DNA of 64,000 nt, from contig NZ_JHEG04000001.1 in the NCBI RefSeq assembly GCF_000760695.4, positions 7,911,123-7,975,122 of the forward strand, written 5' to 3'. Both the position numbers and the translations under genes were made by a program. Positions 11,671 to 25,559 of this stretch are shown here, one piece after another; the stretch's first letter is position 1; the number at the start of each line of letters is the position of its first letter. The notes below the pieces were generated by a model, which saw only the letters and a program-made list of their open reading frames with translations, was not told where the DNA came from and made no database searches. The DNA is from Tolypothrix bouteillei VB521301 (GTDB taxonomy: Bacteria > Cyanobacteriota > Cyanobacteriia > Cyanobacteriales > Nostocaceae).

Positions 11671-14301
11671 TTACAATCGAGGATCGACTGGCTCGCTCTC
11701 TAGAGCTAAAATACCAAAAACGCACTCATGGATGCGACGTAGGGGCGCACGAGCCACAAAACGCTCCAATGCTTCAACACCTAAGGCAAACTCTCGCATG
11801 GCAAGAGAACGTTTGAGGGAGAGTCCCCGGTGACGCAAGCGTGCTAAATTTTCAGTTTTTGAGTATTCAGGACCGTAGATAATCCGCAGATATTCCCGTC
11901 CGCGACACTTAATAGCAGGCTGCACGATACCGCGATTTTCTTGAACTATAAATTGCATTGGCTTGACGACCATACCTTCACCTCCTGCATTTGTGAGTTC
12001 TTCCCACCAACGGACTCCATCTGCTTGGCTGTTGGGATCGGTTAAATCGATCGCCTTGTAGTTGGTTGCAAAAAGCAGGTTGGGGTCAGACTGGCAAATT
12101 TTGGCAATTTGTTCCATGTGCCAGAGATGGTCTTTATCGGTATGGGCTGCTCCCTCTGTTGCTAATATGTGGAAGGGGGCAAGTTTGAGGTGAGAAATAT
12201 CACTGACTGGCCAGCAGTAACGGCGGTAGGCATTGACGTACTGATGGGCCATTTTGACTCGTTCTTGGTAAGAACTGAGTTGATTGCTGACATCTACACC
12301 CCGGTGACTGGCTTGTTGTAACAAGGTTACAGCATCGGTTAAGGAAAGGCGCGATGCAATTCCAACAGGTGCATACTGTTGCTGTAATAATGCTTGGGCT
12401 TTGGCAGACCAAGGCATCAATTCGCAATCCAAGCAAACCCATTCTGTATTAAATGTTTCCCAAAAACCACTGTGTGAAAGGGCAGCATTCAATCGGGTCA
12501 AAAATTCTTGCTCTAGCTGTAAATTATCAAAAAATCTTCTTCCCGTGCGGGTATAGCAAATTCCGATTCCCTCATCCACTACACCAAATCGTTTTTTCGC
12601 TGCTATTTCATCTCGACAGACGATCGCGATCGCCCGAGAACCCATGTGCTTTTCTTCGCAAACAACTTTCGTAATTCCACGGCTTTGATAGTAGGCAAAA
12701 GCCGGAATCGGATGTTCTAAATAACCCGGTTCTTCAGATGTTTCTACAGGAGACATGGTAGGTGGTAAGTAAATCAGCCATTTGGGATTAGCAGCAAAAC
12801 GGCTCATCACCTCTAAGGCTGCGATCGCATTTTCTTCGCGAATCGTAATTTTAGCTTTGAGTCGAGTATCAATGATGCGCTTCCCGAGGACATCCTCAAT
12901 ATTAAGCACATCATCATATTCCTGCTGCAAGGAAGCACCCCGCGTTTCCACAATTGGTTTGATAGGTTCGCAATAAGTCTGAAAAGCAGGAATGCTAACC
13001 AGTTCCCTTTCTGGATAACGCAATGCAGTTAATTTCCCACCAAACACACACCCCGTATCAATATCAATAGTATTATTCAACCATTCAGGTTCTGGAACAG
13101 GAGTATGTCCGTAAACAACAACCGCCTCACCGCGATAATCTGCAGACCAATTGTAACGAACGGGCAAACCAAACTCATCAATTTCTCCAGTCGTTTCACC
13201 ATATATAGCAAACTCCCGTACAGCCCCAGAACCCCGCCCGTGCATTTCCTGTTTTAATCCCGCATGAGCAACCACCAGCTGTCCCTTGTCAAAAACATAA
13301 TGACTTATCAGGGAATTGAGGAACTCACACAACTGTTTTGTAAAAGATTCACGCACATCCTCTGGCAAAAGCTCAATTTCAGCCAAAGTTTGCTCCAATC
13401 CATGATTTACCTTAACATTTTTACCTCGTAATTTCCGCAATAGCTTGTTTTCATGATTACCTAGAATGCAGAAACCCGTTCCTGCTGCAACCATGTTCCG
13501 CACAAGTTTTACCGTATCCAAGATCCGAGGTCCCCGGTCTACAAGGTCACCTAAAAAAACTGCTTTGCGTCCTTCAGGGTGGTAGTAGGTGGGGAAGTCC
13601 CAATGAGGAGAGGGGGAGGGGGAGATGGGGAGAGGGGGGGATTGGGTAAACAAGGGAGAAGATTCTACCTTGTCTTCCTTGTCTTTTTGGTAGCCCAACT
13701 TTTGCAATAGAGCTTCAAGTTCATCACAGCAACCGTGAAGATCGCCGATGATATCAAAAGGACCAAGTTCGTGTTTGCGGTTGTTCCAGAGTGGTTGACG
13801 CTCAATTTCTACAGTTTCTATTTCCTCTACGGAATTGAGAGTGTAGACATAGCGGAAACCTTCTTTTTCCAAACCTCGCAGCGATCGCAACAGAAAATGA
13901 GTGTGACGGCGCACTACATGAGGACCAAACTGACGGTCTGGTCGTTGTTGGTTGCGTTGGTGACAAAGTTCTTCTGGAAGATTGAAAGCGATCGCCACAG
14001 ACAAAAAGTGATACTCTCGTGCCAGTGCTAGCAATTTTTTGCGGTCTTCCGGGTAAACATTAGTAGCATCTATAACAGTGAGTTTACCGATCGCCAATCG
14101 CTTAGCTGCAATATAGTACAACACATCAAAAGCAGCAGAACTTGCAGCCTGATTGTTTTCATCATCAGACACCAGTCCCCTACAAAAATCTGAAGATAAT
14201 ATCTCAAAGGGGTGAAAGTTTTTGCGAGCAAATGTTGATTTACCAGAACCAGAAGCTCCGATAAGAACAACTAGAGATAATTCGGGAAGTGTTATTTTCA
14301 T
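11671..14301 (-). CDS. pnkp: polynucleotide kinase-phosphatase/ligase of bacterial RNA repair (Pnkp)
   Basis: 876 residues, close to the usual length for bacterial Pnkp. Three modules are complete. The 5'-kinase (about 1-170) has the P-loop GASGSGKST at 15-23. The metallophosphoesterase 2',3'-phosphatase (about 180-440) has DIIGDLHG (183-190), GDLVDRG (251-257), GNHENK (281-286) and VVYGHTPV (about 396-403). The adenylyltransferase ligase (about 480-876) has EEKHMGSR with the candidate AMP-accepting Lys551 and GEGMVVK (774-780). Pnkp heals and seals RNA cut by ribotoxins, working with Hen1, encoded upstream here. A Ser/Pro-rich stretch at about 204-240 interrupts the phosphatase and looks repeat-derived. 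The start codon directly abuts a heptamer array, leaving no Shine-Dalgarno. Confidence 0.93.
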   Translation of the reverse strand: MKITLPELSLVVLIGASGSGKSTFARKNFHPFEILSSDFCRGLVSDDENNQAASSAAFDVLYYIAAKRLAIGKLTVIDATNVYPEDRKKLLALAREYHFLSVAIAFNLPEELCHQRNQQRPDRQFGPHVVRRHTHFLLRSLRGLEKEGFRYVYTLNSVEEIETVEIERQPLWNNRKHELGPFDIIGDLHGCCDELEALLQKLGYQKDKEDKVESSPLFTQSPPLPISPSPSPHWDFPTYYHPEGRKAVFLGDLVDRGPRILDTVKLVRNMVAAGTGFCILGNHENKLLRKLRGKNVKVNHGLEQTLAEIELLPEDVRESFTKQLCEFLNSLISHYVFDKGQLVVAHAGLKQEMHGRGSGAVREFAIYGETTGEIDEFGLPVRYNWSADYRGEAVVVYGHTPVPEPEWLNNTIDIDTGCVFGGKLTALRYPERELVSIPAFQTYCEPIKPIVETRGASLQQEYDDVLNIEDVLGKRIIDTRLKAKITIREENAIAALEVMSRFAANPKWLIYLPPTMSPVETSEEPGYLEHPIPAFAYYQSRGITKVVCEEKHMGSRAIAIVCRDEIAAKKRFGVVDEGIGICYTRTGRRFFDNLQLEQEFLTRLNAALSHSGFWETFNTEWVCLDCELMPWSAKAQALLQQQYAPVGIASRLSLTDAVTLLQQASHRGVDVSNQLSSYQERVKMAHQYVNAYRRYCWPVSDISHLKLAPFHILATEGAAHTDKDHLWHMEQIAKICQSDPNLLFATNYKAIDLTDPNSQADGVRWWEELTNAGGEGMVVKPMQFIVQENRGIVQPAIKCRGREYLRIIYGPEYSKTENLARLRHRGLSLKRSLAMREFALGVEALERFVARAPLRRIHECVFGILALESEPVDPRL

Positions 14302-14341
14302 GTTAATGGCTAATGGCTAATGGCTAATGGCTAATGGTTAA
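14302..14341. repeat. heptanucleotide array (TAATGGC) between thg1-like and pnkp
   Basis: Roughly five consecutive copies of a TAATGGC/TAATGGT heptamer fill almost the whole spacer between the thg1-like stop codon and the pnkp start codon. It belongs to the same family as the arrays at 15161-15222 and 26701-26790 (complement TTAGCCA). Such short tandem repeats are known in heterocystous cyanobacteria. Confidence 0.8.
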
Positions 14342-14348
14342 TGAATAA

Positions 14349-15113
14349 TTACAATGAACTGTTAATAATTTTTGTAATAAACTGGCTGTATTCATCCTTC
14401 ATAGGTAAATTAAAATCATGGAGAATGCGCCGTCGCGTGGTGGGAACAACTTCACCGTTTACGGGATTGTAACCCAATTTTTCATATTCTTCCCAATACA
14501 AACCTACACCTCGTTTTTGCCAGTTAGGTAACTGATTGAAATTAATACCGTACTGAAACAAAAGTTCGTTTTTATCAGCAACAGACATTTTCTGAAGTCT
14601 TTTGGTAGCTTGGGTTGCATTATTACCATCTCGCCGCAAACTCCAGTAACAGTGGGAGTTAAGAGAATTTCTATGAGCGTCTTCATGTCGCCAACGGAAA
14701 TAATTTACAACTTCTTCCATACTGGGTAGTTGGGATATGCGACAATCAAAAGCACCGATATCACCAAGCAATAAAGAAAACTTAGCACTTGCTTCTCCTG
14801 CTAAAACTGAATTTAGTTTTCTTAACTTACGACCAAAACTATTTTCGTTACGAGAAAACAGCAACGAGATTTCATCACTTTGGGTATAGCCATAAATAAT
14901 ATCTATTCCACAATGCATTAAATATTCAGTTGTTGTCAGCATCATGTCGCGAAATTTTTCATCATAAGGAGCTTCAAATTGATGGGTTTCTTTAGTCAAT
15001 CGAGTAAAGCTACGCCCATCTAATCTTGCTACAATATAAATTCCGGGCAGTACACAATAGTCGTGTGCTGTCTCAAAAACCCGCATTTTACTATCAAGTT
15101 CATCAAATTTCAT
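14349..15113 (-). CDS. tRNA(His) guanylyltransferase-like (Thg1-like) 3'-5' polymerase
   Basis: 254 residues, typical for the family. The polymerase palm is recognisable: MKFDELDSKMRVFE, then the first metal-binding motif ARLDGRSFTRLTK (Asp32), and the second carboxylate pair in GYTQSDEISLLF (Asp80/Glu81). The later motif reads AHRNSLNSHCYWSL, where eukaryotic Thg1 has an HxxNLYNT box, so the NLYNT element is changed, as expected for a Thg1-like repair protein rather than a dedicated tRNA(His) G-1 enzyme. Thg1-like proteins add nucleotides in the 3'-5' direction to 5'-truncated tRNAs. It lies between hen1 and pnkp on the same strand, strongly suggesting 5'-end restoration during RNA repair. 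The physiological RNA is unknown. Confidence 0.92.
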   Translation of the reverse strand: MKFDELDSKMRVFETAHDYCVLPGIYIVARLDGRSFTRLTKETHQFEAPYDEKFRDMMLTTTEYLMHCGIDIIYGYTQSDEISLLFSRNENSFGRKLRKLNSVLAGEASAKFSLLLGDIGAFDCRISQLPSMEEVVNYFRWRHEDAHRNSLNSHCYWSLRRDGNNATQATKRLQKMSVADKNELLFQYGINFNQLPNWQKRGVGLYWEEYEKLGYNPVNGEVVPTTRRRILHDFNLPMKDEYSQFITKIINSSL

Positions 15114-15160
15114 TTGTGAGGGGTTAGTTGTTTATAATTTGTAATTTGTAAGTTTCTATT

Positions 15161-15222
15161 AGCAATTAGCCATTAGCAATTAGCCATTAGCAATTAGCAA
15201 TTAGCCATTAGCCATTAGCAAT
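15161..15222. repeat. heptanucleotide array (TTAGCMA) between hen1 and thg1-like
   Basis: About nine copies of TTAGCAA/TTAGCCA in tandem. The array runs into the 3' end of hen1: the last codons of hen1, Asn-Cys-stop (AATTGCTAA on the coding strand), are made of repeat sequence. It occupies most of the 101-bp spacer before the thg1-like gene. Confidence 0.8.
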
Positions 15223-16606
15223 TAACCCTTCTCAACACCGCCATTTGTGTAGGCGAACCTACCTCTGAATCTTCTGCTCCAATAGGTTGAAATTGCACTG
15301 TGTAACCAAAACGTTTTGCTACAGTATTTGCCCAAGTTTGAAATTCTTGACGGGTCCACTCAAAACGATGGTCTCTATGGCGCAGTTTTCCTGCTGGTAA
15401 GTTCTCAAATTTGATGTTGTATTCAATATTGGGAGTAGTGACTATAACTGTTGTTGGCTGGGCAAACTCGAATAACGATCGCTCAAAGGCTGCAAGGCGG
15501 GGTAAATCGAGATGTTCGATGACTTCTACGACGGTGGCTGCATCGTGTCCGGTAAAACGCTTATCCTGGTAGGTCAGCGCACTTTGAAACAGTTGCATCC
15601 GGTTCCACTGGTTTTTTGGTAAACGCAGGCGGTCTAGTCTTTCTTGTGCTACTTCTAGGGAACGATAGGATACGTCTACACCTGTAATCTGTTCAAAAAA
15701 GCTGTCTTGAAGTAGTACTTTCATTAAGCTACCCTGACCGCAACCTAGATCGATGACTCGCTTTGCACTATTTTCTTTTAAAGCGGCTACAACTGCATTT
15801 AACCTCTGCTGATTTAAGCTGATGGGCTTTTCTACCTCTGCTTCTTCCTCAGCATGGCTTTCTTGGGAGGAATCTGGATCGGGTTGGTCTTCTTCTGCTA
15901 ATTTTGCTAAAGCAGCACGCGTGAGGCGGTGCTGTCGTTTTAGGTAGCGACGGGTAATTTCTTGTTTTGCTGGATGTGCTGTTAACCACCCTTCTCCATG
16001 ATGCAGGAGCTTTTGAACTTCTTGTTCGCTGACCCAGTAGTGTTTCTCATCATCTAAAACGGGGATGAGTACGTAGAGATGACTGAGTAGCTCCCTCAGA
16101 GGCAAAGTATGCTGCAATTCTACTGTGTAATATCGGCTCTGTCCCCAATCGGGAAATTCTTCATCGAGTTGGTGACTTTCGGCATTGACAGTATAGCCTA
16201 ATGGTTCAAATAACTGGCGCAAGAAAACTTCACCACCCCGACACGGTAAAACACTTAATCTGGCAAAGAGGGGTATGGGTGTTTGTACCATTTCGGGTCG
16301 TTCTTTACACCGCCCTGCAAGGGCTGTACTGAAAACTTGGGCGATCGCAACACTAAAAAATGATGAAGCCACATAAGGGCGATCGCTCACGTACTCTGCC
16401 AAAGTTGCACCGCGTCCCCGCACTAACTTTATCTGGTCGATATCCAATAACAGCGCCGCCGTGCATCTGTCTTCGCTAAGCTCTGGGTAAAAGACGTGTG
16501 CTTGTCCAAAGGAGAGCGAAAAGGATTGACAGCGCTCTGGATGTTTGTGCAGGAGATAACCCAAGTCAGTTGTTGGGTTGTGTGTGGTGGTTATGGTCAG
16601 AAGCAT
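15215..16606 (-). CDS. hen1: 3'-terminal RNA ribose 2'-O-methyltransferase Hen1
   Basis: 463 residues, matching bacterial Hen1. The N-terminal half (1-240), beginning MLLTITTTHNPTTDLGYLLHKHPER with LSVLPCRGG near residue 118, is the domain known to activate the Pnkp ligase. The C-terminal methyltransferase has the SAM motif RVIDLGCGQGSL (about 284-295). Its metal-binding cluster is seen as EVIEHLDL followed by the HRDHRFEW segment, supplying the Glu and His ligands of Hen1 enzymes. Hen1 methylates the 2'-OH at the 3' end of cleaved RNA before sealing, protecting the repaired site against a second cut. First gene of the hen1 - thg1-like - pnkp operon. An acidic linker (about 240-265) separates the halves. 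The stop codon lies inside a heptamer array. Confidence 0.93.
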   Translation of the reverse strand: MLLTITTTHNPTTDLGYLLHKHPERCQSFSLSFGQAHVFYPELSEDRCTAALLLDIDQIKLVRGRGATLAEYVSDRPYVASSFFSVAIAQVFSTALAGRCKERPEMVQTPIPLFARLSVLPCRGGEVFLRQLFEPLGYTVNAESHQLDEEFPDWGQSRYYTVELQHTLPLRELLSHLYVLIPVLDDEKHYWVSEQEVQKLLHHGEGWLTAHPAKQEITRRYLKRQHRLTRAALAKLAEEDQPDPDSSQESHAEEEAEVEKPISLNQQRLNAVVAALKENSAKRVIDLGCGQGSLMKVLLQDSFFEQITGVDVSYRSLEVAQERLDRLRLPKNQWNRMQLFQSALTYQDKRFTGHDAATVVEVIEHLDLPRLAAFERSLFEFAQPTTVIVTTPNIEYNIKFENLPAGKLRHRDHRFEWTRQEFQTWANTVAKRFGYTVQFQPIGAEDSEVGSPTQMAVLRRVNC

Positions 16607-17598
16607 TCTTTTTCGATTAATATATATTACATTAATACTACATGAGTAGTCTTAAGGGTATTTAGGAGTCAAATAACTTTACAGTTATAGCTGACTCATG
16701 CAAACAGTGTCAGTGGAGAAAATGGGAACCGTGCAAACGAAGTTCTGTTAGACACTTTTATTTGGTCTGTAGGAGCCGTTTAGCGTGTGTATTGGGAGTA
16801 TGCCAATTTGAAAAAAACAAGTTTGCGATTGAAATCGCGGCTATACAAACGAAACCTGCCTACGCAGGTTATTTTTAACAAAGTCCACGTAGGTGGTGAG
16901 TCCAGCCCTGTAGGCGGTGAGACCAGTGCTGTAGGCGGTGAGACCAGTGCTGTAGGCGGTGAGACCAGTGCTGTAGGCGGGTTTCCCGCGCCCTGGCAAC
17001 TGGCGAACAAGGGAGGGGTTTCCCGCGCCCTGGCAACTGGTGAACAAGGGAGGGGGGTTTCCCCCCAACCCCACTTCGTGGGGACCCCAAAGCCCCCCGT
17101 TGAGGCGACTGCTCTGGGTTCCCCCCGTTGTTCGCGTAGCGTCTCCGCTCCTGAGATAGCGCCTGTCGTCTCGAATTCTATTCTGAGGACATTTTGCCAA
17201 AACGGGATACTTCCTGTGTATTGCCACTACATACTACTAATGATTCTTTCCACTGATTTACTTATTGCAACCAAAATTTTTTCTTGATTATCTGTTCTTT
17301 AGCTAATTTATCTATTTTTTAGCTCTTTGAACTATTAAAAAAAAATCTATTTTAACCAAAAAATATTCATGTAATAATAGCAGCTAATTCCAACAATTCA
17401 TACTACTAGATTGATAATTCATAAAAGATTTAAATTTTATCTTTTTAACTTTATGAATACTTGATTTAGACATGATTTCTATCCAATGGAGGAAGACGCA
17501 AAGAAAAACTGGCGCTGTTCGCCAAAGTGTGGCGTCAGCTATAGCACGACTACACACTTACAATTACCAACCACTAACGACTATCAGGGAAAAAAGCA
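16607..17598. repeat. repeat-rich intergenic region
   Basis: Nearly 1 kb without a supported gene. It holds a dispersed repeat starting at about 16832 (ATCGCGGCTATACAAACG then CCTGCCTACGCAGG, AAAGTCCACGTAGGTGG). A 21-bp tandem repeat with four units follows (16895-16978), then a 37-bp tandem duplication (16981-17017 and 17018-17054) and a G/C-rich tail with short palindromes to about 17150. Open frames of 70-170 codons across it on both strands are low-complexity repeat translations. From 17230 to 17460 the DNA is A/T-rich and may contain the promoter of the chemoreceptor gene, but I see no clear -35/-10 pair. Confidence 0.7.
16895..16978. repeat. 21-bp tandem repeat, 4 units
   Basis: Unit GGTGAGACCAGTGCTGTAGGC; units 2-4 (from 16916, 16937 and 16958) are identical, and unit 1 (16895) differs at three positions. 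The period is a multiple of 3, so all frames through it stay open. Confidence 0.9.
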
Positions 17599-20283
17599 AT
17601 GAATGGCACCTACAACCAAAATTTAGTGGCATTATCTATAGCGATCGCAGTCTTTGCTTCCTACACGGGGTTAAACCTAGCAGGACACATGAGTGCAGTC
17701 AGTAAAAAAGTCAGAATCGCTTGGTTAATTGGAGGTGCGATCGCTATAGGAATTGGTATCTGGTCAATGCACTTTGTTGCCATGTTAGCCTTATACCTAC
17801 CAACACCTATTTCTTACGATTTAGGCAAAGTTTTATTCTCAATATTACCTGCAATTCTTGCTTCAGGAGCCGCACTTTTTTTAGTCAGTTGCCCGATTTT
17901 AGGTTTTGGGAGATTGTTAATTGGAGGCGTATTGATGGGTTTGGGCATTGCCTGCATGCACTATACGGGTATGGGAGCAATGCAGATGGCAGTCAATACG
18001 CAATATGACCCTTTATGGTTTGCAGGTTCTTTAATCATTGCTGTTGCTGCTTCAATTACAGCTTTATGGCTGGGCTTTTACACCCGGAAAACCAAGGCTG
18101 GAAGTTTTATTAAGATTTCAAGTGCTATTGCTATGGGAATTGCTATTTCCGGGATGCACTACACAGGGATGGCTGGAGCTTCTTTTACACCCAATAAGTT
18201 AGCGCAAACAGTTTCTTTTGTACAAGACGTTCAAACAGATGATACTTTGTTAGGTATTTGTCTGGGGCTAGCAACTTTTATCATTCTGGGTTTTACGCTA
18301 CTCACTTCCCTTGTCGATAGACATTTATATACTCAAACCAAGATTCTCAAACAGCAACAAGCAGACGCTTTGCGATCGCAACAATTTACAGACATGACTC
18401 TCCGAATCAGACGCTGGTTGAGTTTGGATGATGTGCTCAACACTGCTGTCAATGAAATTCGTCAAGCTCTAGATATAGATCGTGTTATCATTTATCGCTT
18501 CAAGCCTGATTGGAGTGGCACGATTGTTGCCGAATCAGTGACACGCACCTGGATGCGAACAATAGGCAAAACATTGAACGATCCAATGAACGAACACTGT
18601 AGGGAGTTGTACAAAAATGGAAGAGTTAGAGCAACTAATAATATTTACGAAGCAGGCTTTACAGATTGCCACCGCGAGATATTAGAAAATCTTCAAGTGA
18701 AGGCAAATGTGGTTGCACCAATTGTCATTAACGATGCGCTTGTTGGGTTGTTGTGCGCTCATCAATGTTCTGGATTTCGGAAATGGCAGCAATCGGAAGT
18801 GGATTTGTTCGGACAGTTGGCAATTCAAGTCAGTATCGCCATAGAACATGCAAATCTGTTACACGAATTGCGACAGGCGCAGGAAGTGTTGTGGTTGCGC
18901 GATCGCGCGATCGCAGCAGCAAGTAATGCCATCATCATTACCGACGCTAGGCAATCGGATAATCCCATTATCTTTTGCAACACTGCTTTTGAGAACATCA
19001 CTGGCTATTCGTCACAAGAAGTTATGGGACGCAATTGTCGCTTCTTGCAAGGAAGAGACACAGATCCGGCGACTGTGGGAGAAATACGCAATGCCTTGCA
19101 ACAAAGACGTGATTGCCAAGTCATTATCAAGAACTATCGTAAAGATGGCACTCCTTTCTGGAATCAATTGACAGTTTCACCAGTCAAAGATGCTTCAGGA
19201 CAAGTGAGTCATTTTATTGGAGTGCAAGCAGATATTACAGAAAGAATGCAAGCACAGCAAGAATTAGAATCCAGTAAAGAAACTTTGCAAAGACAGGTTG
19301 TAGAACTGCTCAACGATGTTCAAGAAGCTGCTAAAGGCGATTTAACCGTGCGTGCAGAAATTACACCAGGAGAAATTGGGGTGATTGCTGACTTTTTCAA
19401 TCTTATTATTGAAAGTCTGCAACAAATTGTTATATCTGTAAAAAATACAGCCCGACAGGTAAACGTATCTGTTGGAGACAATTCAGAAGCAATGCACGAG
19501 TTAGCAGATGAAGCACTTCAACAAGCCGAAGAGATTAACTATATTTTGGAATCATTGGATTCCATGGCGCTGTCAATTCAAGATGTGGCGGACAACGCTC
19601 ATAAAGCAACAGAGATGGCTCGCAGTGCATCGACAACTGCCAAGGCAGGAAGAAATGCAATGGAACATACTGTTAATAATATTATGAACTTGCGGTTGAC
19701 AATTTCAGAGACTGCCAAAAAAGTCAAGAGATTGGGTGAAGCATCTCAAGAAATTACCAAAGTTGTGTCCATGATTAACCAAATTGCCCTGCAAACTAAC
19801 GTACTCTCTATTAACACGAGTATTGAAGCAGCAAAAGTAGGCGTGGAAGGTCAAGCCTTTACGGTGGTTGCAGAAGAAATTGGTGGATTAGCTCTTCGCG
19901 CTTCCCAAGCAACGAAAGATATTGAACAAATTGTGGACAATATTCAGTTAGAAGCAAGAGCCGCAATCAAAGCTGTGGAACAGGGATTGACACAAGTGGT
20001 AGATGGAACTGAGTGTGTCCAAGATGCAAAGCTCCAGCTTGGTGAAATTTTAGATGTTTCTTGCCAAATTGATAATTTACTCCATTCTATTTCCAATACC
20101 ACCGTTTCTCAAGCAGCAACTTCTCAAGCAGTGGTATGCTTGATGAAGCAAATTGCTGACAGTTCTTTGCGGACAAGCGATTTATCTCGTCAAGTTTCTA
20201 CTTCTTTACTGCAAACTGTGGAGATGGCGCAGGAGTTTCAGGCTTCAGTTGGTGTTTTCAAAACAGAAAGAGTGCGGCGTTGA
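17599..20283 (+). CDS. MHYT-GAF(bilin-type)-LOV-HAMP chemoreceptor, copy 1
   Basis: 894 residues; AGGGA lies about 10 bases before the ATG. Residues 1-240 form an MHYT sensor (SMHFVAM at 56-62, CMHYTGM and GMHYTGM later). The GAF domain (about 265-430) resembles cyanobacteriochrome domains: Asp328 in NDPMNE, Cys357-His358 in FTDCHREIL, and AHQCSGFRKW, so covalent bilin binding is plausible. The PAS domain (about 440-550) carries the LOV signature GRNCRFLQG with Cys480, followed by NYRKDG, FWNQLTVSPV and FIGVQ. A HAMP (about 570-625) and an MCP signalling domain complete it. The hairpin tip is divergent (NTSIEAAKVGVEGQAF). It probably feeds CheW/CheA and pili for phototaxis or redox taxis; no che genes are nearby. 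Domain order is seen; chromophores are inferred. Confidence 0.88.
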   Translation: MNGTYNQNLVALSIAIAVFASYTGLNLAGHMSAVSKKVRIAWLIGGAIAIGIGIWSMHFVAMLALYLPTPISYDLGKVLFSILPAILASGAALFLVSCPILGFGRLLIGGVLMGLGIACMHYTGMGAMQMAVNTQYDPLWFAGSLIIAVAASITALWLGFYTRKTKAGSFIKISSAIAMGIAISGMHYTGMAGASFTPNKLAQTVSFVQDVQTDDTLLGICLGLATFIILGFTLLTSLVDRHLYTQTKILKQQQADALRSQQFTDMTLRIRRWLSLDDVLNTAVNEIRQALDIDRVIIYRFKPDWSGTIVAESVTRTWMRTIGKTLNDPMNEHCRELYKNGRVRATNNIYEAGFTDCHREILENLQVKANVVAPIVINDALVGLLCAHQCSGFRKWQQSEVDLFGQLAIQVSIAIEHANLLHELRQAQEVLWLRDRAIAAASNAIIITDARQSDNPIIFCNTAFENITGYSSQEVMGRNCRFLQGRDTDPATVGEIRNALQQRRDCQVIIKNYRKDGTPFWNQLTVSPVKDASGQVSHFIGVQADITERMQAQQELESSKETLQRQVVELLNDVQEAAKGDLTVRAEITPGEIGVIADFFNLIIESLQQIVISVKNTARQVNVSVGDNSEAMHELADEALQQAEEINYILESLDSMALSIQDVADNAHKATEMARSASTTAKAGRNAMEHTVNNIMNLRLTISETAKKVKRLGEASQEITKVVSMINQIALQTNVLSINTSIEAAKVGVEGQAFTVVAEEIGGLALRASQATKDIEQIVDNIQLEARAAIKAVEQGLTQVVDGTECVQDAKLQLGEILDVSCQIDNLLHSISNTTVSQAATSQAVVCLMKQIADSSLRTSDLSRQVSTSLLQTVEMAQEFQASVGVFKTERVRR

Positions 20284-20862
20284 TAGGTAAACAGCAAATA
20301 GCGACTGCTCAGTCAATACTTTTGCCAAAACGCCCTCACTCTGGAAGAGTAGGGCTGTACAAATAAAGCCCACGCAGGTGGGCTTTGGGTTTTAGCCCAC
20401 GCAGGTGGGCTTTGTTTATGTAGCCACAGACTTCCAGTCTGTAGGGTTTTTAAGAAATTGGCAAAGGTATTGATTTCATAACACAATTCTGTTTCTTCTT
20501 GCCAACTATAGGATGACAGTCAATGAGAAAATAACATTTATTAATAAGAAAATAATCAATTTTTGATTGATATTAAATATAGTAAAATGTGTTTATCTTT
20601 GCGTCTTTTCCTACTTTTCAGTCTTTATTTTTTTAAAAAAATACAGTAACTAACCTACTTTTCCTACTGTACAAAATTAGGGTTTTTATGGTTTAAAATA
20701 TAAGATATAGAGAGTTCAAATGGGGATAATAGCGGTTCAGCCGTGAGCGCGAGAATATCTTGCTTGCGGCTTTTATTTTTTTTAGTTTTTATTTTTTAAA
20801 AAAATTTATGTGGAAGAGCTTTTACGAAAAATTCTTTTGTGCAAGAATGTCTCTTGTAAGCA
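20284..20862. other. intergenic region between chemoreceptor 1 and the tnpB element
   Basis: Contains the stem-loop cluster at 20352-20451 and then about 400 bp of A/T-rich sequence. An oddly symmetric AAAAAATA/TATTTTTT tract and the hairpin AGCGGTTCAGCCGT around 20730 are the only structures I noticed. No gene is supported; short frames here have no recognisable content. Confidence 0.45.
20352..20451 (+). terminator. three consecutive stem-loops downstream of chemoreceptor 1
   Basis: AAAGCCCACGCAGGTGGGCTTT (20365-20386) is a near-perfect hairpin, followed by a second copy of the same stem (20393-20413) and by ACAGACT-TCC-AGTCTGT (20426-20442), which is followed by GGGTTTTT. The last has terminator form. 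The first two belong to the CTATACAAAC-type dispersed repeat family (GGGCTGTACAAATAAAGCC), so the terminator may have been supplied by a repeat. Confidence 0.55.
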
Positions 20863-20995
20863 ACCCCGCTCTAAAGAGACGGGGCTTTAGCCCAGTTCAC
20901 GCCTATTTGTCGGAAACAGCCCTTCGCTGCCCTTCCAACAAACAACTCATCCCCGGACTTTCGGGCACGATTGCGGAGTACCCCAAAACTGCAAT
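20830..20995 (-). ncRNA. candidate omega RNA overlapping the 3' end of tnpB
   Basis: In IS200/IS605 elements the guide (omega) RNA is transcribed through the 3' end of tnpB into the right end of the element, with the guide lying just past the element boundary. The equivalent stretch here includes the last 30 codons of tnpB and the stem CCCCGCTCT/AGAGACGGGG (20864-20884). The guide would correspond to the sequence just below about 20860 on the minus strand. This is positional inference only; no structure was computed. Confidence 0.35.
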
Positions 20996-22140
20996 ATTGG
21001 CAGACGCATTCAAATCGGCATCACATTCAAAACCACAATGTCCACATTTAAACGACTTACCAGAACGATACGATTTACCGTTAACCGGATGTACGTGGTG
21101 ACACCGCGAACAAGTCTGACTCGTGTAAGCAGGTGGAACCAAAACTACTGGCACTCCCGCAATACTTGCCTTGTATTGGGTAAACAACCGCAACTGATAA
21201 AATGCCCAATTGTTGGTTCTACGTCGTTCCGTTTTAGAACGTGGCTTTTCGTTGAGCGATTCTCGAATGTTTGTCAAATCTTCAAAAGCAAGTGCGGCAT
21301 TACTTTGTTTTGCTTCAAAGACAATTTCTTTAGAAATGTTGTGATTCAGCCACTTTTGAAAGCGTTGTTCTCTGCCAGAGAGCCGTCTCAGGAGTCTTCT
21401 AGAACTCCGAGTGCGTTTGCGTTGAACATTAGCTCTGACCTTACTGTAGCGGTCACGGATAAATTGAATCTGTTTGCCACTCCAAGATTTTCCAGTACTT
21501 GTCGTGGCGATATCTCGCCTGCCGAGGTCAATGCCAATTACTCTGGGCGTTTTGCCCGGTGGTTGGCTTGGAACATCAACAGCGATGTTGATATAGTAGT
21601 CGCCCCGTTTGGTTTTGTTGAGAGTGGCAGCAGTTGGAGATTGACCTTTGAGCAACCCCAGTTGATAGTTACCGATGCTCAACTTAAACTTCCTGCGTCC
21701 ACTTATCAATGTCACGCCAACGGCTTGGGACTCTTCGATGTATTGAAAAGTCCGAGCATCCAAATTAATGGACGTTGGTCTGAATGCGTGGATTTGTTTA
21801 ACAGCCTTAGCGTTGCCAATCACGCGACGAATCGCTTGGCAAACGTGATTTGCTTTCAACCCCGTGGCTTCACGAACGCTCTTGTAAACCAAGTGATGCA
21901 ACTTGGTTGTATTCCAGCATTTTTCGCGTTTTGCAACGGACAATATCTGGTTGCAAGCATCTGCAAACCCCTCTAAAGTTGCGTCAATCTCTTGCTGCAA
22001 CTTTACAGGAACTTCAATCTTGCATTTTACAGATATTGTCTGCATTTAAATAACTTGAAAACTCATCCAATTATAATAAAGGACGGTTTGAGTATGCAAC
22101 GAGTTCTCAAGACAATTTCACTGCCATTAAAATGGCACGA
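20860..22140 (-). mobile_element. solo tnpB transposon (IS200/IS605 superfamily, IS1341-like), approximate ends
   Basis: The element consists of the tnpB gene plus flanks. The right (3') end carries the stem CCCCGCTCT/AGAGACGGGG at 20864-20884, typical of IS605-type ends. Beyond the 5' end of tnpB a 7-bp stem TGCCATT-AA-AATGGCA (22122-22137) may belong to the left end. No tnpA (Y1 transposase) is present, so movement would need a tnpA supplied in trans. It sits exactly between two paralogous chemoreceptor genes. The exact boundaries cannot be fixed without an empty-site comparison. A 35-codon frame at 22094-22201 in the left flank is unrecognised. Confidence 0.65.
20903..22045 (-). CDS. tnpB: TnpB RNA-guided nuclease (OrfB of IS200/IS605)
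   Basis: 380 residues, full length. The N-terminal wedge and helical part begins MQTISVKCKIEVPVK. The split RuvC nuclease is intact: RuvC-I VIGIDLGRRD with Asp173, RuvC-II ALAFEDLTNIRE with Glu255, and RuvC-III in CDADLNASANIAV with Asp344. The zinc ribbon has its four cysteines: CSRC (312-315) and CGHC (334-337). TnpB is an RNA-guided, TAM-dependent DNA nuclease that promotes retention of its transposon. All key residues are present, so the protein is probably active. It is convergent with chemoreceptor 1 and divergent from chemoreceptor 2. The ATG at 22045 gives the expected family N-terminus. Confidence 0.93.
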   Translation of the reverse strand: MQTISVKCKIEVPVKLQQEIDATLEGFADACNQILSVAKREKCWNTTKLHHLVYKSVREATGLKANHVCQAIRRVIGNAKAVKQIHAFRPTSINLDARTFQYIEESQAVGVTLISGRRKFKLSIGNYQLGLLKGQSPTAATLNKTKRGDYYINIAVDVPSQPPGKTPRVIGIDLGRRDIATTSTGKSWSGKQIQFIRDRYSKVRANVQRKRTRSSRRLLRRLSGREQRFQKWLNHNISKEIVFEAKQSNAALAFEDLTNIRESLNEKPRSKTERRRTNNWAFYQLRLFTQYKASIAGVPVVLVPPAYTSQTCSRCHHVHPVNGKSYRSGKSFKCGHCGFECDADLNASANIAVLGYSAIVPESPGMSCLLEGQRRAVSDK

Positions 22141-22343
22141 GTCGCAGTTCCTCCTTGGTCTAAAGACACAAGGTTTCCCTGCTCCCGGAGGTTCCAGATG
22201 AAAAATGAGGCTCATCCACTAAAAGGTCTACCCAATTTATATGTTTTTTTGTTTTTCTAGGTTACTGGTAATAAAAGATACGAAAATTAAGTTTTAATAA
22301 ACTATTCAAAAAGATTGTTTTGGGACACCAGGGGAATTTACCA

Positions 22344-25145
22344 ATGATGAGTAGCACCTACCACCAGGGCTTAGTAGCGCTATCTATAGCGATCGCAGTA
22401 CTGTCATCTTACACAGCTCTAGATTTAGCAGGGCGCGTGACGGCGGCTGAGAAAAAGATCAGGCTGATTTGGTTGATTGGCGGTAGCATCACGATGGGAA
22501 TTGGTATCTGGTCGATGCACTTTATCGCCATGCTTGCTTTTAGTTTGCCAGTCCCTATTGCCTATGATGTGAAGACGGTGATTTTCTCAATCATGCCTGC
22601 TGTCGTTGCTTCTGGAGGAGCGCTCTTTCTTGCCAGTCGCCAATTTTTGAGCTGGCAGCGCTTGCTGTTTGGGGGGGTGTTAATGGGTCTGGGGATTGCT
22701 GCCATGCATTATATTGGGATGGCAGCTATGAGGATGGAGGCTCACACTCATTACGATCCCGTGTTATTTGTACTGTCAGTGCTTGTTGCGATCGCAGCAT
22801 CTATTGCGGCTTTGTGGATTGCTTTTCACTTCCGGATGCAAACGAGCCACAAGGGAAGGTCATCGCGGATATTAAGTTCGCTGCTGATGGGGTGCGCGAT
22901 CGCTGGTATGCATTACACGGGAATGGCAGCAGCTTCTTTTATGCCAACTCAAGCTGTGGGTAGGGTGTTGGCAAATCAGGCAAATTCTTCTTTAACCTTG
23001 CTAGCAACTGGGATTGGGGTGTGTACCCTGATTATTTTGGCGTTTACTCTGCTGACATCTTTTATCGATCGCCGGATGTCAGCGCAAGCTATACTCTTGA
23101 GACAGCAGGAAGCGGAAGTTTTGCGGGCGCAGAAATTTACAGAATTGACTCTCCGCATTCGCCGTTCTCTCAAGTTGGATGATGTTCTCAATACGGCGGT
23201 CCGTGAAGTGCAGCAAGCTTTGGGTACAGACCGGGTGATTATCTACCGCTTTAATCCTGACTGGAGTGGAACAATCATTGCGGAGGAGGTAGGGTTAAAT
23301 TGGAATCCCCTCCTAGGGCATACAGTGAATGATTCTTTTTGGGAACGTTATATTGAAACTTACAACGGTGGTCGGGTTTGGGTAACGAACAATATTTACG
23401 ATGTGGGTTTTGCTCAAGCTCATTTGGAGATTTTAGAACATTTCCAGATTAAGGCTTATATGGCTGCGCCGATTTTGAATAACAATCAACTCCAGGGCTT
23501 GCTGTTTTGCCATCAGTGCTGCGGTTTTCGACTTTGGCAAAAGACGGAGGTTGAGTTATTCCGACAATTGGCAATTCAAATAGGGATTGCTTTGGAACAG
23601 GCAAATCTGTTGCATGAATTGCAGCAAGCACAGGAAATTTTACGGGTGCGCGATCGCGCTATTGCTGCGGCTAGCAATGGTATTCTCATTACAGACCCGC
23701 GTCAGGCAGATAACCCCATTATCTTTTGCAACGCTGCATTTCAAACAATCACCGGCTACTCGCAAAAAGAAGCACTGGGGCAAAACTGTCGTTTCTTGCA
23801 GGGACCGGATACAGATCCAACGACGGTGAAAGAGATACACGACGCTGTCAGAGAAGAACGCGATTGCCAAGTTGTGATTAAGAATTATCGTAAAGATGGA
23901 ACTCCTTTTTGGAATCAGCTGACCGTTTCACCAGTTCGGGATGCGTTGGGACAGGTGATTCATTTTATTGGAGTACAGGCAGATATTACAGAACGAACAC
24001 AGACACAAGAAATGTTGCGAGACAGTAAGGAAACGTTGCAACGGCAAGTGGTTGCGCTGCTCGATGATGTTCGGGAAGTGTCTAAGGGTAACTTGACGGT
24101 ACGTGCGGAAATTTCCGTAGGGGAAATTGGGGTTGTGGCTGAGTTTTTCAATGCCATTATTCAAAATTTGCGGCATATTGTGACTCAGGTGAAACACACC
24201 GCCGCACAGGTCAATATTTACGTTGGGGAAAACTCAGAAGCAATGCGTTTGTTGGCTGATGATGCTCTCAAACAAGCTGAAGAAATTACCAACACTTTAC
24301 AGTCTCTCGATGCAATGGCGCTTTCCATCCAAGCTGTGGCAGATAGCGCACACCAAGCAGCAACTATGGCTCGCACGGCGTCCACTGCTGCTGAAAGCGG
24401 AAACAGTTCTATGGATTTGACGGTTAATAGCATCATGAATCTGCGTTTAACCATGTCAGAAGCGGCTAAGAAGGTGAAGCGGTTGGGTGAATCTTCTCAA
24501 GAGATTTACAAAGTGGTGGCTTTGATTAAACAAATTGCTTTGCAAACAAATATTATTGCGATTAATACCAGCATTGAAGCAGCAAAAGCGGGTGAAGAAG
24601 GTCGGGCTTTTAGTGTGGTTGCAGAAGAAGTGAGTCAATTAGCGGCTCAATCGACACAAGCGACTCAAGAAATCGAGCAAATTGTGGATAACATTCAGTT
24701 TGAAACCACGGAAGTGGTAAAAGCTGTGGAAGAGGGAATGAATCAGGTGGTGGAAGGGACGGATTTGGTGAGAGATACTAAGATGCAATTAGGGGAGATT
24801 TTAGATGTATCCCGCCAGATTGATGAGTTGGTGCAGTTAATTTCTGATGCAACGGTGTCCCAAGCGCAAACTTCACAACTGGTGGCGTCGTTGATGAAGC
24901 AGATTGCTCATGATTCTTTCCATACGAGTGAATTTTCTCGCTTGGTTTCGAGCTCTTTGGATCAGACTGTGAGTGTAGCAAAGCAATTGCAGGATTCCGT
25001 TGCGGTGTTTACCACTGAGGAGAAGCAGGAAAGTGCCATTGTTGAGCCGCCTATGGCGCTGGAGACGATAGATACTCGCGAGTATACTGTTCTGGATTCT
25101 GTGGTAGTTCACAATGGCAATGGCAAACACTCTGTGAAGCGGTAG
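22344..25145 (+). CDS. MHYT-GAF-LOV-HAMP chemoreceptor, copy 2
   Basis: 933 residues from the ATG at 22344 (a second ATG follows at once); AGGGGAA lies 7 bases upstream, whereas a longer reading would need a TTG at 22320. It has the same architecture as the gene at 17599 and clear similarity throughout. The MHYT domain has SMHFIAM, AMHYIGM and GMHYTGM. The GAF domain lacks the bilin-binding cysteine: the equivalent segment reads FAQAHLEIL, with Ala359 in place of Cys and the following His kept. The LOV-type PAS is intact: GQNCRFLQG with Cys482, NYRKDG, FWNQLTVSPV and FIGVQ. HAMP and MCP domains follow; the hairpin tip is closer to canonical (NTSIEAAKAGEEGRAF). A 60-residue tail after the MCP domain is absent from copy 1. 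Probable blue-light or redox taxis receptor. Confidence 0.88.
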   Translation: MMSSTYHQGLVALSIAIAVLSSYTALDLAGRVTAAEKKIRLIWLIGGSITMGIGIWSMHFIAMLAFSLPVPIAYDVKTVIFSIMPAVVASGGALFLASRQFLSWQRLLFGGVLMGLGIAAMHYIGMAAMRMEAHTHYDPVLFVLSVLVAIAASIAALWIAFHFRMQTSHKGRSSRILSSLLMGCAIAGMHYTGMAAASFMPTQAVGRVLANQANSSLTLLATGIGVCTLIILAFTLLTSFIDRRMSAQAILLRQQEAEVLRAQKFTELTLRIRRSLKLDDVLNTAVREVQQALGTDRVIIYRFNPDWSGTIIAEEVGLNWNPLLGHTVNDSFWERYIETYNGGRVWVTNNIYDVGFAQAHLEILEHFQIKAYMAAPILNNNQLQGLLFCHQCCGFRLWQKTEVELFRQLAIQIGIALEQANLLHELQQAQEILRVRDRAIAAASNGILITDPRQADNPIIFCNAAFQTITGYSQKEALGQNCRFLQGPDTDPTTVKEIHDAVREERDCQVVIKNYRKDGTPFWNQLTVSPVRDALGQVIHFIGVQADITERTQTQEMLRDSKETLQRQVVALLDDVREVSKGNLTVRAEISVGEIGVVAEFFNAIIQNLRHIVTQVKHTAAQVNIYVGENSEAMRLLADDALKQAEEITNTLQSLDAMALSIQAVADSAHQAATMARTASTAAESGNSSMDLTVNSIMNLRLTMSEAAKKVKRLGESSQEIYKVVALIKQIALQTNIIAINTSIEAAKAGEEGRAFSVVAEEVSQLAAQSTQATQEIEQIVDNIQFETTEVVKAVEEGMNQVVEGTDLVRDTKMQLGEILDVSRQIDELVQLISDATVSQAQTSQLVASLMKQIAHDSFHTSEFSRLVSSSLDQTVSVAKQLQDSVAVFTTEEKQESAIVEPPMALETIDTREYTVLDSVVVHNGNGKHSVKR

Positions 25146-25223: not shown

Positions 25224-25559
25224 TCACCCTACTGCGAAATCTGTAAATTCTCGCATTTTCGGAGTGTGAAATCCAATGACAATATCATGCTTGGGTACTC
25301 CCATTTCTATTAGTTCCAAGGCAATGTCAACTTCAGTCGTATTTTGTTGAATCCAAATTTTCTCATTTATAATATCAAGATGCATTATAGGACCGTAAAT
25401 ACGCTTTTGGTTGTTCCAGCCTACTCTTAGAATTTGGTAATGATTGCGTTCTGTATCAAATATTGGTTCAACTTCTACTTCACCGTAACTTGGTTTATAC
25501 TTGGTATATTTATTAAGAAGTTGTTGAATTTTATTTCGATAATCGTCTATTTTAGCCAT
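25224..25559 (-). CDS. xisI: XisI family protein (fdxN-element excision controlling factor)
   Basis: 111 residues, typical length. MAKIDDYRNKIQQLLNKY at the N-terminus, then DTERNHYQILRVGWNNQKRIYG, DIINEKIWIQQNTTE and ALELIEMGVPKHDIVIGFH are the conserved XisI blocks. XisI and XisH were named for helping excision of the fdxN element in Anabaena heterocysts, but xisHI pairs are widespread in cyanobacteria and most are not tied to an excision element; some are thought to act as toxin-antitoxin-like or regulatory pairs. The start codon overlaps the end of an xisH remnant by 13 bases, the normal arrangement of the pair. Here the XisH partner is destroyed, so this copy may be orphaned. Confidence 0.88.
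   Translation of the reverse strand: MAKIDDYRNKIQQLLNKYTKYKPSYGEVEVEPIFDTERNHYQILRVGWNNQKRIYGPIMHLDIINEKIWIQQNTTEVDIALELIEMGVPKHDIVIGFHTPKMREFTDFAVG

Follow-up and report, generated by a model that had tools for sequence, protein, structure and literature searches.

The stretch of DNA analysed here, hereafter the window, comprises 64,000 nt of the forward strand of Tolypothrix bouteillei VB521301 (GCF_000760695.4, NZ_JHEG04000001.1, positions 7,911,123-7,975,122) and encodes two large receptor proteins, both on the + strand. The first (copy 1; 17599..20283) has 894 aa and, from its open reading frame and Pfam matches, the order MHYT, GAF with a Cys at the bilin position, LOV with the adduct Cys, HAMP-like region and MCP. 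The second (copy 2; 22320..25145) follows the same order, with 933 aa from the ATG at 22344, its likely start, or 941 aa from the TTG at 22320, the first start of the ORF. Both frames are open throughout. An earlier note on this DNA had described two such proteins, and Pfam confirms their MHYT (E 3.4e-43 and 3.8e-50), GAF, PAS_9 and MCPsignal domains above cut-off in both copies, the last of these with 104.1 and 122.9 bits against a curated cut-off of 34.6. In copy 1, the MHYT membrane domain covers 17599..18318 (residues 1-240) and the Pfam MCP signalling domain 19609..20157 (residues 671-853), with the hairpin tip placed by alignment at 19789..19893 (residues 731-765); the MCP signalling domain of copy 2 lies at 24363..24911 (Pfam). 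The HAMP domain, also claimed earlier, fares less well: its match in copy 2 stays at 13.9 bits (E 0.07), below the Pfam cut-off of 25, and copy 1 has no listed match. What stands is a HAMP-like region (copy 1, 19243..19443, residues ~549-615, by alignment and model), which appears as helix, turn and helix in a full-length model of modest confidence (pLDDT 70.9, pTM 0.38). This model also shows seven long MHYT helices, the last extending into the linker, and an MCP stalk of low confidence.

Several other features surround the pair. Between the two copies lies a TnpB-type mobile-element gene (20903..22045, - strand, by profile matches), to which we assign no part in receptor function, and the 14.5 kb covered at the syntenic locus of the one same-genus genome contain no ORF resembling it. 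Upstream of copy 1 there are short tandem repeats (16889-17052), made of 21-nt units plus a pair of 37-nt units, and further upstream a row of RNA repair genes on the - strand (11671-16606), with a PNKP_ligase protein, Thg1 and Hen1 side by side. Directly downstream of copy 2 is an XisI protein gene (25224-25559, - strand).

In their LOV domains, both copies carry the GxNCRFLQ motif with the adduct Cys, together with both Asn and the Gln of the flavin site, as the earlier note had read them. In copy 1 the domain occupies 18928..19242 (residues 444-548), and its predicted flavin-adduct Cys480 is encoded at 19036..19038. In copy 2 it spans 23676..23993, with the adduct Cys codon at 23787-23789, that is, residue 482 counted from the ATG or 490 from the TTG. 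The copy 1 domain matches the solved LOV domain 9vf7 at E 8e-40 by sequence, and its model superposes on the CagFbFP LOV domain 6ywr with a TM-score of 0.96 and 0.7 A at 55% identity. The NCBIfam model of YtvA, a blue-light family, matches the LOV part of the two proteins at 169 and 164 bits, which is below the whole-protein cut-off of 250. On these sequence and model data, both LOV domains are very probably photoactive.

The GAF domains tell the two copies apart. That of copy 1 (18424..18843, residues 276-415) is of the cyanobacteriochrome (CBCR) type, and carries the Cys357-His358 pair (18667..18672) and the upstream Asp328 (18580..18582) previously pointed out. The pair aligns with the Cys-His of CBCR structures, which makes Cys357 the predicted bilin attachment site. 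Asp328 is followed by Pro-Met-Asn, so the second Cys of a DXCF motif is absent at this place. The closest solved structures by sequence are CBCR GAFs, in agreement with the earlier assignment: 6oap (7.1e-37), TePixJ 3vv4 (3.1e-36) and AnPixJ 5zoh (3.2e-34). A Cph1-type phytochrome GAF follows (8w26, 6.7e-16), and bacteriophytochromes come at ~1e-9 or weaker. Scores of this order against solved structures, from 7e-37 to 3e-36 for this GAF as well as that of the copy 1 LOV, place the motifs beyond chance. In an AlphaFold model of residues 238-572 (mean pLDDT 84.8, pTM 0.53) compared with the PDB, the GAF superposes on that of TePixJ (4glq) with a TM-score of 0.90 and 1.3 A at 44% identity. The GAF of copy 2 (23175..23594) is also CBCR-like by sequence (best match 6bhn, E 2.3e-36), but the alignment places an Ala codon (23418..23420), followed by His, where CBCRs have Cys-His. 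Thus, the earlier view of two dual photoreceptors does not hold for copy 2, and the difference at this single position makes copy 1 a candidate bilin and flavin receptor and copy 2 a candidate blue-light-only receptor.

As for the membrane part, the Pfam MHYT repeats of both copies retain the conserved Met-His. The three motif His residues (His58, His121 and His187 in copy 1) are all kept in 38 of the 42 aligned members of the receptor family described below. The passages on CoxC in PMC11347149 report that its MHYT domain requires Cu2+ for the response to CO, with O2 competing. By analogy, the MHYT domains of the window receptors may sense gas in a copper-dependent way.

How unusual is such a combination? 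The earlier note had proposed to count the domain order in cyanobacterial proteomes. Of 217 genomes from the host's family, 30 carry the full architecture, with matches at E 1e-115 or better among the best four candidates per genome. These genomes hold 43 matching places, 42 of full or near-full length plus one fragment. In samples of 386 genomes of the phylum and 388 of the order, which overlap and were scored for the best two candidates per genome, whole-length matches came from the host's family only. Among 72,556 plasmid records, none contains as much as 80% of copy 1 at a single location. A contig scan named Brasilonema sp. CT11, Nostoc sp. FACHB-973 and Nostoc calcicola FACHB-3891 among the carriers.

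Two broader searches addressed the GAF and LOV pair by itself. A GAF-LOV profile, with the best five candidates per genome scored, matched 42 of the 386 phylum genomes at 1e-60. Outside the receptor family, seven places span the GAF and most of the PAS, leaving out two that end at profile positions 275-276 (G080, G014). All seven have Cys-His GAFs and histidine kinase motifs (Pfam checked for two), and the LOV motif, sought as a text pattern, is absent from them. The NCRFLQ codon pattern, in turn, occurs at 80 places in 43 of 88 phylum genomes. Our census covered 59 of these places (52, plus three others of the window genome and four family copies), the remaining 21 all belonging to one group of genomes of 1.7-2.3 Mb (f31). 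The 59 places contain 32 ORFs with the pattern, 28 of them non-family. Among these 28, the LOV profile matches 27, the MCP profile none and the GAF profile seven, two strongly (155 and 161 bits) and five weakly (52-71 bits). The two strong cases (L286:3282-5885 and L273:4094-6523) are histidine kinases whose GAF reads Cys-Leu or Cys-His at the canonical position and whose LOV bears the Cys, so that a CBCR-like GAF joined to a LOV domain is rare but not unique. The combination of GAF and LOV with MCP and MHYT was seen only in this receptor family within the samples; the earlier note had suspected that both chromophore types in one MCP are unusual.

Within this small family, loss of the two light sensors has been piecemeal and differs from branch to branch. 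The GAF Cys is present in 23 of the 42 aligned members and the LOV Cys in 20; eight have both, 15 only the former, 12 only the latter, and seven neither, while Gln543 is kept in 18. A quick tree, built with the GAF-Cys and LOV-Cys columns excluded, gives three groups, on which the fewest changes are eight for the GAF Cys and three for the LOV Cys. Group K (n=6) includes both window copies and a third copy of the host genome (C1:2799506-2802181), and has the GAF Cys in one member and the LOV Cys in five. Group R (n=12), with the fourth host copy (C2:273578-276250), has them in five and 12, respectively, which makes six and 17 of the 18 members of K and R together. Group W (n=24) shows the reverse, with the GAF Cys in 17, the LOV Cys in three and a Tyr at the LOV Cys position in 21. 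Copies of one genome can differ: three genomes pair a LOV-only copy with a GAF-only copy (G404, G407, G409), three a LOV-only copy with one that has neither Cys (G403, G405, G408), and two a copy that has both with another that has neither (G453, G454). Purifying selection acts on every domain of the pooled sister pairs (omega 0.18-0.45; simple counting, with intervals from codon resampling). We do not claim that the GAF relaxes after Cys loss, as its omega of 0.28 [0.21-0.38] in such pairs and of 0.20 [0.15-0.28] in Cys-bearing pairs have overlapping intervals. The same-genus genome has two family copies. At its syntenic locus, where four genes, Thg1 and Hen1 among them, are 90-92% identical and Thg1 and Hen1 adjoin the receptor as well, the ortholog of copy 2 stands alone within 14.5 kb.

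Taking sequences and models together, we somewhat favour the window pair as membrane gas and light receptors, in which copy 1 would be dual for bilin and flavin and copy 2 would respond to blue light only. The copy 1 GAF probably binds a bilin, most likely at Cys357, and the host genome has one gene of the bilin reductase family, which counts for its supply; the LOV would hold FMN, with the adduct at Cys480. That both chromophores are bound in one protein appears slightly better than an even bet. Some observations count against it: Met330 and Asn331 are changes peculiar to the copy 1 GAF, and when the model of residues 238-572 was searched against the PDB, the top eight matches by E-value were phytochromes (seven chains from bacteriophytochromes, one from Cph1) whose alignments span both domains at ~16-19 A rmsd, with the low-rmsd CBCR and LOV matches ranking after them. 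The first alternative to consider is that copy 1, like copy 2, senses blue light only, with Cys357 kept by chance in a decaying GAF and bilin binding lost in the cell. Five of the six members of its group have lost the GAF Cys, whereas four of the six keep the LOV Cys, Asn512 and Gln543. Against the family copy G544a, its GAF has diverged faster than its LOV (dN 0.30 vs 0.14, synonymous sites being saturated). Moreover, copy 1 is a long branch on the tree, and the single genome of the same genus lacks an ortholog of it. However, Cys, His and Asp are retained together, the closest solved structures are CBCR GAFs, and the GAF of Cys-bearing pairs is constrained, as the omega given above shows. 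We regard this alternative as possible but unlikely, and keep the dual reading for copy 1.

The output of these receptors raises a separate question. For a constrained MCP stalk, the default expectation is signalling through CheA/CheW in trans. The host genome has 17 MCP domains over cut-off and 24 CheW-domain places, so the Che machinery is present. On the contig, the nearest CheW domain is ~2.4 Mb from each copy of the window pair, and 70 kb and 443 kb from the other two family copies. Of the 13 non-family MCPs of the genome, by contrast, 12 have a CheW domain within 4.1 kb and one at 162 kb. The MCP tip is altered family-wide: of 22 strong positions, chosen for conservation on the same 35 non-family MCPs (from 36 loci, 35 of which gave an alignment match) that keep 19-22 of them, copy 1 keeps 15 and copy 2 17, with 15-18 in group K, 11-20 in R and 12-17 in W. 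These tip changes, together with the distance to CheW genes, leave the CheA/CheW output in doubt, and we see a role of the receptors in taxis as evenly balanced.

In a second alternative, CheA/CheW signalling was lost and the MCP stalk was rewired to another output, which in one branch would be a Ser/Thr kinase. The tip Arg has become Trp in 23 of the 24 members of group W, and the MCP omega reaches 0.45 [0.39-0.54] in nine Trp-tip pairs vs 0.19 [0.14-0.24] in five Arg/Lys-tip pairs. In 23 of the 24 W loci, a divergent Ser/Thr kinase gene (PF00069, ~485 aa) begins 370-1066 bases upstream of the receptor gene; in the other (G482), it lies ~12 kb away on the same contig. Of 211 genomes from the host's family, 27 contain this kinase near full length with at least 62% identity and at least 632 bits. 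The next match has 576 bits and 57%, and some matches to the kinase domain only reach 62% near 440 bits. The 27 comprise the 24 W genomes, one with the receptor in pieces at two contig ends (G406), one with a remnant matching residues 2-97 (G446) and one in which the receptor is absent from the 14 kb covered (G452). The association of kinase and receptor has a Fisher p of 1.9e-30, a descriptive value that ignores kinship and counts G446 as lacking the receptor. On the other hand, no receptor-kinase interaction is known, the Arg/Lys-tip MCP domains are strongly constrained, and the group of the window has neither the Trp nor an adjoining kinase: the locus DNA searched for the K loci, window included, gave no match to the W kinase or to the ion channel discussed below. 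We regard a rewired stalk as rather doubtful, and for the window pair we would retain CheA/CheW acting in trans on motility.

Other neighbours were also considered. An ion channel gene of the Kv type lies upstream on the same strand in the 12 Arg-tip loci of group R (for example, L152:3687-5266, and 11 further loci), with an OmpA-family gene between in eight of them. As a receptor partner, this potassium channel was rejected: of 211 genomes from the host's family, 196 have the channel and most of these lack the receptor, and its adjacency is read as an inherited position and not used as functional evidence. At one receptor locus (L332, G449), the nearby DNA gives additional GAF matches as well as two matches to related Ser/Thr kinases.

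The two remaining alternatives are weaker. A LOV domain could act mainly as a redox or energy sensor rather than for light. The passages concerned in PMC9668731 attribute redox sensing to the flavin PAS of the taxis receptor Aer, and those in PMC4682037 report that LOV proteins lacking the Cys still signal through flavin photoreduction; yet the adduct Cys, both Asn and the Gln are all present in both window copies, and we deem this quite improbable. That the pair is decaying and devoid of present function, as the TnpB-type element between the copies, the long branch of copy 1 and the altered tips might suggest, is very improbable given two fully open frames and an omega of 0.11-0.27 by domain between copy 2 and its same-genus ortholog.

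The best reading thus remains a membrane gas and light receptor, a dual photosensor being split among paralogues. In this preferred scheme, the N-terminal MHYT domain would sense gas in the membrane, and the cytosolic GAF and LOV would sit on long helices ahead of the HAMP-like region and the MCP stalk. A change in light or gas would travel along these helices from MHYT to GAF, LOV and stalk. With bilin and FMN together, copy 1 could weigh two light colours and a gas signal. The inputs left to copy 2 would be blue light through the LOV and the MHYT signal, its GAF serving as a relay or dimer module. On the origin of the family we are more tentative: the ancestor may have been a dual photoreceptor that also sensed gas and signalled through an MCP stalk, later split by complementary loss. 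One branch would have retained the bilin sensor, given up flavin chemistry and passed its output from CheA to the divergently encoded Ser/Thr kinase, and the others would have retained blue light with a Che-type stalk. The three genomes with one GAF-only and one LOV-only copy suggest this rather speculative course, as does the place of copy 1 among the eight members with both Cys. If the scheme is true, two light colours and a gas signal would be integrated by one protein, and comparing the natural variants that miss one sensor could show how a single MCP stalk receives several inputs. In the kinase-linked branch, one could examine how such a stalk changes its partner. The piecewise loss of two sensors and this kinase-linked branch are, in our opinion, a more telling result than the window pair alone.

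Among known systems, no MCP combining CBCR and LOV domains is described in the open literature covered, including the relevant parts of PMC5812497, PMC8846402, PMC6798134 and PMC11347149, a scope that excludes subscription papers and supplements. The closest in output are PixJ1/TaxD1 of Synechocystis and PtxD of Nostoc punctiforme, in which CBCR GAFs are likewise fused to an MCP and tied to phototaxis. They differ in having two or seven GAFs and che-type clusters, and the passages on them mention neither LOV nor MHYT (PMC5812497), unlike the window receptors, which lie far from Che genes and have no Che gene cluster beside them, as judged by CheW domains on the contig. UirS (Slr1212) of Synechocystis, needed for negative phototaxis to UV-A according to the same source, joins a membrane ethylene-binding part and a CBCR in one protein, but with an ethylene domain instead of MHYT and a histidine kinase output instead of an MCP. 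The L286 and L273 kinases share with copy 1 the CBCR-like GAF with the canonical Cys and the Cys-bearing LOV, whereas their outputs are histidine kinases and their Pfam tables contain no MHYT or MCP domain. CoxC, which senses CO with copper, MucR and NbdA have the same N-terminal MHYT membrane domain, although with LytTR or GGDEF-EAL outputs and with no photosensor mentioned in the passages on them (PMC11347149). Lastly, the dualchrome DUC1, a cryptochrome-phytochrome fusion, comes from a green alga, has a cryptochrome instead of a LOV domain and is not an MCP, but it unites two kinds of photosensor in one protein (PMC11879098, in the part dealing with it), as the candidate copy 1 would do.
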